Source of the DNA: Akkermansia muciniphila
Lineage (GTDB): Bacteria > Verrucomicrobiota > Verrucomicrobiia > Verrucomicrobiales > Akkermansiaceae
NCBI GenBank assembly: GCA_945874895.1
Contig: CAMCIC010000005.1
Coordinates: 62,001 to 126,000, forward strand
Length of the DNA stretch: 64,000 bases
Direction of reading: 5' to 3'
Shown here: positions 40,102 to 42,606 of the stretch, piece after piece
How the letters are laid out: every line of letters begins with the position of its first letter
How positions within the stretch are numbered: the stretch's first letter is position 1
Notes under the pieces: generated by a model
What the model was told of the DNA's origin: nothing
Seen by the model: only the letters and a program-made list of their open reading frames with translations
Databases searched by the model: none
Translations under genes and position numbers: made by a program

Positions 40102-41322
40102 TCACACATCGGGCAGTGATTGAAACGCGATACGCGGCACGTCTTCTGAAAGTGCCGCCTGGGCGGAACCGAACCACAAGGCCTTCGCACCATGACGTTT
40201 GGCAACCTGATCGAGCAATCGACTCAACGCCATTTCCCGCGGATCTGGCGCAAACAGTGGCAGCCTAGGATCCGAATGCGTGAGGAGTCGGGACAAATCT
40301 ACCCCCACCGCAAACGGATGACTCAAGGACTGCGGTCGCTCCAGCCAAAGGGCTCTCCACACTTCGAGCAAGACGCGAATCTCCTGTGTCGAAGGAAACC
40401 GCGCCATCACCGACCACGAAGGAACATTCATATCGCGACTGGATTTCACCTTGATATGCATTTCTCCACATTCATAACCTTCACGCCTCAAACGCAAAGC
40501 CGCTTTGTAAACCAATCGTTCCAGCATGGCCCTCGCGCCATCCTCATGGCGCAAGCGAGGATGCAGGATTTTCGAATGCCCGATCTGACGTGCGACGATT
40601 TCAGGCCTCACCGGTTCAATGCCATGCAATGACTGCCAGAAACGCTCACCCTCGATTCCCCCCCACACCGCCCGCAGTTGTCGGGGGGTAGCCTCCCACA
40701 ATTGCCGTACCGTTCGAATGCCTCGTATTTTTAGACGCTCATGCATGTTCGCGCCTATGCCGCATAAATCGCGCAATTCCAGCTCAAAAAACTCCGATCC
40801 AGGTTGTTGCGCGTCCAACCATACCAGCCCATCGGGTTTGTGCATATCGCTTGCGGTTTTAGCCAAGAACACCGTGGGAGCTAGGCCGATCGAACAGGTC
40901 AGAGGATCGCCAAAATCGCTTGCCAAGCGACGTTTTACTTGCAAAGCGATTTGCCAGACTTTTTCTTTTTCAGCATAAGGTCCGGTAAACACCGCATACA
41001 ACTCATCAATCGAGCAAACCTTTTCTACGGGGATCTCCTCTTCGATCAAAGATATCAACCGACGGTGATAGTTCATGTATTTCACCGCATCACTGAGCAC
41101 CAGAATGATCCCAGGACAGCGGGCGCGCGCTTCGCGCACAGGAGTGCCCGTCTTGATGCCGTAACGCTTTGCTTCCCGGCTCGCCGCAATGCAGCAAGTG
41201 GCATCTGTCATGCTCGCAATCACCGCCACCGGCTTACCGCGCAAAAGAGGATTGGCGTGCTGCTCCACAGCCGCGAAATAACTATTGAAATCCACAAAAC
41301 AAACCGTACGCCTCACGCTCAA
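40102..41322 (-). CDS. Y-family (translesion) DNA polymerase
   Basis: The 406-residue protein is a UmuC/DinB-type polymerase that copies damaged DNA. The catalytic acidic residues lie in CFVDFNSYFAAVEQ (near 8-21) and CSIDELYAVF (near 103-112). A helix-hairpin-helix region follows (LCGIGANMHERLKIRGIRT), and the little-finger domain is C-terminal. No UmuD gene is adjacent and the C-terminal beta-clamp motif is not obvious. The start is TTG 41322 or GTG 41316. A Verrucomicrobia-type LexA box lies immediately upstream, so SOS control is likely. Confidence 0.9.
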   Translation of the reverse strand: MSVRRTVCFVDFNSYFAAVEQHANPLLRGKPVAVIASMTDATCCIAASREAKRYGIKTGTPVREARARCPGIILVLSDAVKYMNYHRRLISLIEEEIPVEKVCSIDELYAVFTGPYAEKEKVWQIALQVKRRLASDFGDPLTCSIGLAPTVFLAKTASDMHKPDGLVWLDAQQPGSEFFELELRDLCGIGANMHERLKIRGIRTVRQLWEATPRQLRAVWGGIEGERFWQSLHGIEPVRPEIVARQIGHSKILHPRLRHEDGARAMLERLVYKAALRLRREGYECGEMHIKVKSSRDMNVPSWSVMARFPSTQEIRVLLEVWRALWLERPQSLSHPFAVGVDLSRLLTHSDPRLPLFAPDPREMALSRLLDQVAKRHGAKALWFGSAQAALSEDVPRIAFQSLPDV

Positions 41323-41325
41323 TAT

Positions 41326-41339
41326 TGTTCATTTGAACA
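41326..41339. promoter_or_regulatory. LexA-type SOS box (Verrucomicrobia consensus)
   Basis: TGTTCATTTGAACA fits TGTTC-N4-GAACA exactly, the 14-bp palindrome described for LexA in Verrucomicrobia. On the minus strand it lies between a TTGCAT (-35) and an AACAAT (-10) spaced 17 bases, so bound LexA would cover the polymerase promoter. The site ends 3 bases before the TTG start codon. Confidence 0.75.
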
Positions 41340-41389
41340 CTTTTTGATGCAAGTCGATTTTTAGAATTTTTTTCCTGCCATTGACGCAC

Positions 41390-41407: not shown

Positions 41408-41481
41408 AAGAACCCTGAATTCCCATGGATGACACAGAATCATCTTACGTGAAAAAATGACGCATGGTAATTCTAAGTCTC

Positions 41482-42606
41482 ATGTCAGACATTAATATTG
41501 CGATCGTAGGACTTGGTTTCGGTGCCGAGTTCATTCCCATTTATCAGAGACTCAAAGGCGTCAACATGTATGCCATTTGCCAGCGTACCCGCTCTAAGCT
41601 CGACGAGGTGGGCGACAAGTTCGGCATCGCCGTGCGCTACGAAAGTTACGAAGAGTTGCTCAAGGACCCTAACATCCACGCGGTTCACATCAACTCCCCC
41701 ATTCCAGATCATGCTGCGCAAACCATCGCAGCCCTGAAAGCAGGAAAACACGTGGCTTGCACGGTGCCTATGGCAACATCGGTCGAGGACTGCAAAACCA
41801 TCGTCGATCTCGTCAAACAAACGGGTCGAAAATACATGATGATGGAAACAGTTTGCTACGCCCGTGAGTTCCTGTTCATGAAGGAGCTCTACGACAAGGG
41901 TGAACTGGGCAAAATCCAGTTTCTCAAAGCTTCTCACCAGCAGGATATGGAAGGTTGGCCGGGCTACTGGCCGGGTCTGCCCCCCATGCATTACGCCACT
42001 CACTGCGTAGGCCCCATCCTCGGACTTACTCGTGGCGAGGCGGAATACGTTTCCTGCTTCGGCTCCGGTACCATTCACGAGTCCATGCATGATTGCTATG
42101 GCTCTCCCTTTGCTGTGGAAACCACGCACATCAAGTTCAAGGACAGCGATGTGTCAGCTCACGTCTATCGGTCACTCTTTGATGTGGCTCGTCAATATCG
42201 CGAGTCATTCGAAGTGTATGGTCAGAAGAAATCCGTCGAATGGCCGCTCATCGAACATCGTCCGCTGGTGATCCACACAGCGAAAAAACCGGAACCAGAA
42301 ATTCCTGAGGAAGTGACTTGCCCTGACTTTGCTCACTACCTGCCGGAGGAGATTCAACTTTTCACGACCGGAGGAGTTTATGGCGGTGAAAGCGGCGAAG
42401 AACACCTTTCCTTCACCCAAGGTGCGGGACACGGCGGTTCTCATCCGCATCTGGTCTATCAGTTTGTGAAAATGCTGCAAAGCGGCGTTGATGCCTATCC
42501 CAACGCCATCGAGTCCGCCAACATCACCTGCACGGGCATTCTGTCTCACGAGTCCGCCATGAAAGGCGGCGAGCTCATTCGCCTGCCAGAATGGACTCAT
42601 CGTTGA
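41482..42606 (+). CDS. Gfo/Idh/MocA family oxidoreductase (second)
   Basis: The 374-residue protein has the Rossmann start INIAIVGLGFGAEFIP and the family block ALKAGKHVACTVPMA, where the usual EKP is replaced by TVP. The lysine of EKP is a conserved family feature, so this enzyme could be atypical or use a different catalytic group. CYGSPFAVETTHIKF and GHGGSHPHLVYQFVKML belong to the C-terminal substrate domain. It is a single-gene unit closed by a strong terminator. ATG 41482 removes six residues of upstream open frame. Confidence 0.85.
   Translation: MSDINIAIVGLGFGAEFIPIYQRLKGVNMYAICQRTRSKLDEVGDKFGIAVRYESYEELLKDPNIHAVHINSPIPDHAAQTIAALKAGKHVACTVPMATSVEDCKTIVDLVKQTGRKYMMMETVCYAREFLFMKELYDKGELGKIQFLKASHQQDMEGWPGYWPGLPPMHYATHCVGPILGLTRGEAEYVSCFGSGTIHESMHDCYGSPFAVETTHIKFKDSDVSAHVYRSLFDVARQYRESFEVYGQKKSVEWPLIEHRPLVIHTAKKPEPEIPEEVTCPDFAHYLPEEIQLFTTGGVYGGESGEEHLSFTQGAGHGGSHPHLVYQFVKMLQSGVDAYPNAIESANITCTGILSHESAMKGGELIRLPEWTHR

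Follow-up and report, generated by a model that had tools for sequence, protein, structure and literature searches.

A predicted LexA operator before a stand-alone Y-family DNA polymerase gene in an uncultured genus related to Akkermansiaceae

The LexA operator of Verrucomicrobia reportedly has the form TGTTC-N4-GAACA. According to a paper that cites Erill et al. 2016, a uracil-DNA glycosylase system was reported to be under SOS control in Verrucomicrobia. Among Y-family DNA polymerases, SOS control applies to UmuC of Pol V and to DinB (Pol IV), in E. coli and elsewhere. Integron integrases can be SOS-controlled as well; the chromosomal integrons of soil and freshwater have mostly lost LexA control, and the survey that reported this does not mention Verrucomicrobia (Cambray et al. 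2011, PMC3108266).

The site described here lies in a 64-kb window, the whole stretch of DNA that was analysed, from an uncultured genus related to Akkermansiaceae; no description of this genus was found in the literature searched. With the Verrucomicrobia LexA operator (attributed to Erill et al. 2016, Front Mol Biosci 3:33, which later papers cite) the site shares its sequence, its placement before lexA and recA and its phylum, but it differs in organism and in its predicted target, a stand-alone polymerase. The initial annotation had assigned the DNA to this phylum and had described a Y-family polymerase downstream of the box with no umuD next to it. The phylum assignment fits the named close relatives, which are Akkermansia, Akkermansiaceae and Verrucomicrobiae MAGs, and the other points held: the open reading frame carries the Pfam domains IMS (E = 3e-34), IMS_C and IMS_HHH_1, and no umuD-like or S24 gene adjoins it among its neighbors in the window.

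The polymerase gene (40102..41316, minus strand) encodes 404 aa, and its product is the only PF00817 protein found in the source genome. It retains intact active-site motifs (DFNSYFA and SIDE), with the catalytic Asp and Asp-Glu present, and the sequence RLPLF near the C terminus, common to the genus members, resembles a clamp-binding motif. Among solved structures, those of Pol IV are nearest to it in sequence. Like SOS-regulated DinB, the protein is a Y-family enzyme with intact active-site residues, no UmuD partner and, by prediction, LexA control. However, it is only distantly related to DinB, reaching at best 167 bits against a cut-off of 381 with the DinB/Pol IV NCBIfam models (equivalog and subfamily cut-offs are 256 and more), and both the type of box and the predicted leaderless geometry differ. 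With UmuC it shares predicted SOS control of a Y-family polymerase, but it lacks the adjoining umuD and scores 82 bits against the UmuC cut-off of 431. Because the scores fall far under every Pol IV cut-off and under that of UmuC, we classified the protein as a Y-family polymerase and not as DinB or UmuC. A UmuC/Pol V assignment was further rejected because no UmuD was found elsewhere in the source genome, where the S24 domain turned up in LexA and in a Schlafen-helicase fusion only. ImuB was rejected on the intact active-site residues, the lack of a neighboring imuA-imuB-dnaE2 cassette and the presence of a single PF00817 gene in the genome. The Schlafen fusion (L121:82-2103, on G000:C11) joins a Schlafen group 3 helicase to a C-terminal, LexA-like S24 peptidase domain.

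A pattern search of the window returned one perfect TGTTC-N4-GAACA, TGTTCATTTGAACA at 41326-41339, compared with 0.05 expected from base composition. This predicted operator has palindromic arms and is given no strand (the minus strand reads TGTTCAAATGAACA); it lies directly upstream of the minus-strand polymerase start. As the initial annotation had proposed, the site fits the motif, and a TTGCAT-N17-AACAAT promoter runs over it on the correct strand. The -35-like element TTGCAT occupies 41347..41352 and the proposed -10 hexamer AACAAT 41324..41329, both on the minus strand, and the spacer between them (from 41352-41347 to 41329-41324) is 17 nt. By the sigma-70 consensus, AACAAT is weak; it overlaps the operator, and the hexamer is not conserved in relatives.

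An in-frame TGA within the box leaves TTG 41322 and GTG 41316 as the sole start options. Since relatives conserve only the GTG/ATG position, the start was placed at the GTG (41314..41316, minus strand), which is also the inferred transcription start region. The TTGC part of the -35-like element keeps its position (-35/-36 relative to the start codon) in each of the nine genus promoters, and the gap from the box to the conserved GTG/ATG is 9 nt in most genus polymerases, 10 in L015 and 11 in L017. No Shine-Dalgarno-like sequence was seen in the 8 genus polymerase promoters scanned. A -35 element that lies 35 nt before the start codon would place the expected transcription start on that codon, and we infer that the polymerase transcript should be leaderless, beginning at the GTG, with LexA over the -10 region. 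The almost leaderless transcript of the initial annotation is thus favored by the conserved TTGC, with its start at GTG 41316 and not at TTG 41322. The nine genus promoters share ancestry and do not represent nine independent events; their fixed geometry makes them a clear example of a predicted operator lying on a predicted leaderless promoter.

The source genome (2.9 Mb, 26 contigs) holds six perfect boxes, against 2 for a reversed-pattern control and 2.4 expected from the base composition of the window. They stand before recA (62 nt upstream of the ATG), lexA (11 nt), ssb, radC, the Y-family polymerase and a decayed integron integrase, so that each of the six has a plausible target; the search before recA and lexA that had been proposed as a check thus found a perfect copy at both. 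One-mismatch boxes numbered 75, against 46 in the control, and were mostly set aside as noise, with the exception of a tandem pair on contig C1. Across 10 genomes of the genus, 61 perfect boxes were found, against 18 in the reversed control, and classification of the targets by tblastn placed them before recA and lexA in 10/10 genomes, ssb in 8/10 and radC in 3/10. Boxes inside open reading frames (L092, L102, L104, L086) were taken as chance, and those of G008 in eukaryote-like contigs (L088 and L092; armadillo repeats, dynein-like) probably reflect contamination in that MAG. Perfect boxes also occur at the start of dinD (DNA damage-inducible protein D) in two genus genomes (L096:1495, L114:230) and, LexA-type as well, at or just before the start of IS91-family transposase genes in two genus genomes (L097:1522, L107:1575).

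Comparison of homologous polymerase promoters, the other check proposed at the outset, showed the box in 9/9 genus members with an upstream region (six perfect, two with one mismatch and one, in G006, with two) and in most homologues at the order level. No polymerase was detectable in the genus genome G004 (92% complete). Among the 15 order-level homologues, which are 36-42% identical, 10 have a box with 0-1 mismatch near the start and in a further 4 the box is weaker and frequently reads TGTTCNTNTGAGTA. None of the four flanking genes of the window (acs, a 289-aa gene, the oxidoreductase and mutM) was found beside the polymerase in 16 relative loci; since the flanks are not conserved while the box is, the box has travelled with the polymerase. 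The 120 nt preceding the match in the Proteobacteria homologues (L046-L055) contain no TGTTC-N4-GAACA, as expected where another motif is read by LexA.

A chance palindrome with no regulatory role would be in keeping with the ∼2.4 perfect copies that base composition predicts for the genome and the 2 of the reversed control. We regard this explanation as extremely unlikely, because the 9-11 nt spacing is kept in every genus promoter, most order-level homologues likewise have the box close to the start, and it is conserved in a neighborhood that is not. Similar palindromes can be read by other HTH regulators, and LexA binding here is predicted from sequence. Nevertheless, it is highly improbable that a palindrome-binding regulator other than LexA acts at 41326-41339: the recurrence of the same motif before lexA, recA and ssb across the genus is the classical signature of a LexA operator, and one LexA gene is present in the genome. 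This LexA has PF01726 (HTH) and S24 peptidase domains, and its Ala-Gly cleavage site, GESM serine and LKRY lysine are readable.

The operator might also serve, instead of or besides the polymerase, a Gfo/Idh/MocA oxidoreductase (start near 41464-41482), which is divergent from the polymerase and shares its intergenic region. Synteny speaks against this assignment, which we consider very unlikely and set aside: the oxidoreductase is absent near the polymerases of relatives, whereas the box stays there at its fixed spacing.

Considering its sequence, its genome-wide company, its conservation and its fixed geometry, the site is very probably a Verrucomicrobia-type LexA operator that controls the Y-family polymerase through a leaderless promoter as an SOS gene. 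The boxes before recA and lexA in all 10 genomes and the conserved polymerase promoters thus argue for the SOS reading of the site in the initial annotation, and neither of the findings named there as refuting it was obtained. With LexA on about -23 to -10, the spacer and the -10 of the polymerase promoter would be covered and RNA polymerase excluded. Upon DNA damage, RecA filaments would lead to LexA self-cleavage and the promoter would open; the predicted induction would yield a leaderless mRNA, with its 5' end on GTG 41316 or right beside it, for the single Y-family translesion polymerase of the genome, with its presumed lesion-bypass activity. The same LexA would control lexA itself, recA, ssb and probably radC. 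The polymerase is thus a well-supported yet ordinary predicted SOS gene that adds to the known LexA regulon of Verrucomicrobia, extends it to an uncultured genus and would explain how the stand-alone polymerase is switched on there. Used as a tag, the box further led to LexA boxes before integron integrases and to a candidate SOS microprotein.

The candidate microprotein lies at the tandem one-mismatch boxes on contig C1 (G000:C1:79969-79998), where the ATG of a 54-aa open reading frame (G000:C1:79992-80153) falls inside the second box; boxes and reading frame together span 79969-80153 (L119:3970-4154, L122). Homologues of 43-46 aa occur in eight other genus members (L123-L130), giving nine genomes in all. 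Both tandem boxes are within one mismatch in 7/8 of these homologues, and L130 has one box and a degenerate second copy. The pooled pN/pS is 0.35. The protein is basic, follows the pattern MNTLKIRxWFFCQRW...EQLxLPFD and showed no significant family in a comparison with Pfam. Because its C terminus, EQLxLPFD, resembles a beta-clamp-binding motif, it may bind the sliding clamp. We tentatively propose that it is an undescribed SOS microprotein of 43-54 aa under LexA boxes, which might possibly bind the sliding clamp upon SOS induction and restrain the replicative polymerase or clear the way for the Y-family polymerase. Two tandem boxes are also found at lexA in another family of the order (L180:1501; G047:C106:31390-31415), with the lexA ATG inside the second, the same layout as that of the microprotein candidate.

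Behind the perfect box at G000:C23:17994 (L006, L120), tblastn revealed an integrase remnant in the form of two broken stretches of the N-terminal region (84% and 66% identical to an intact copy from the genus); nothing further of the gene was found there by tblastn. Integron integrases (TIGR02249) of this genus and of several other genera of the order have perfect boxes just upstream, and the intact ones are L142, L143, L144, L145, L148, L153 and L157. As in the SOS control of integron integrases described previously, a LexA-type site lies on intI, decayed here and intact in relatives. In contrast to the survey in which loss of LexA control is the norm (PMC3108266), a group-specific box is present here, and the LexA motif of this group is not the one on which that survey relied.

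Five order-level genomes, from other families of the order, carry single open reading frames of ∼1400 aa that fuse a DinB-type Y-family polymerase with intact active motifs to a PHP-DnaE polymerase (L181-L185, e.g. L182:1828-6084 and L185:2046-6266). In the papers searched by term on the diversity of bacterial polymerases, no mention of a DinB-PHP-DnaE fusion was found. In four of the five genomes, a short gap separates the fusion gene from a LexA-type S24 gene that precedes it.
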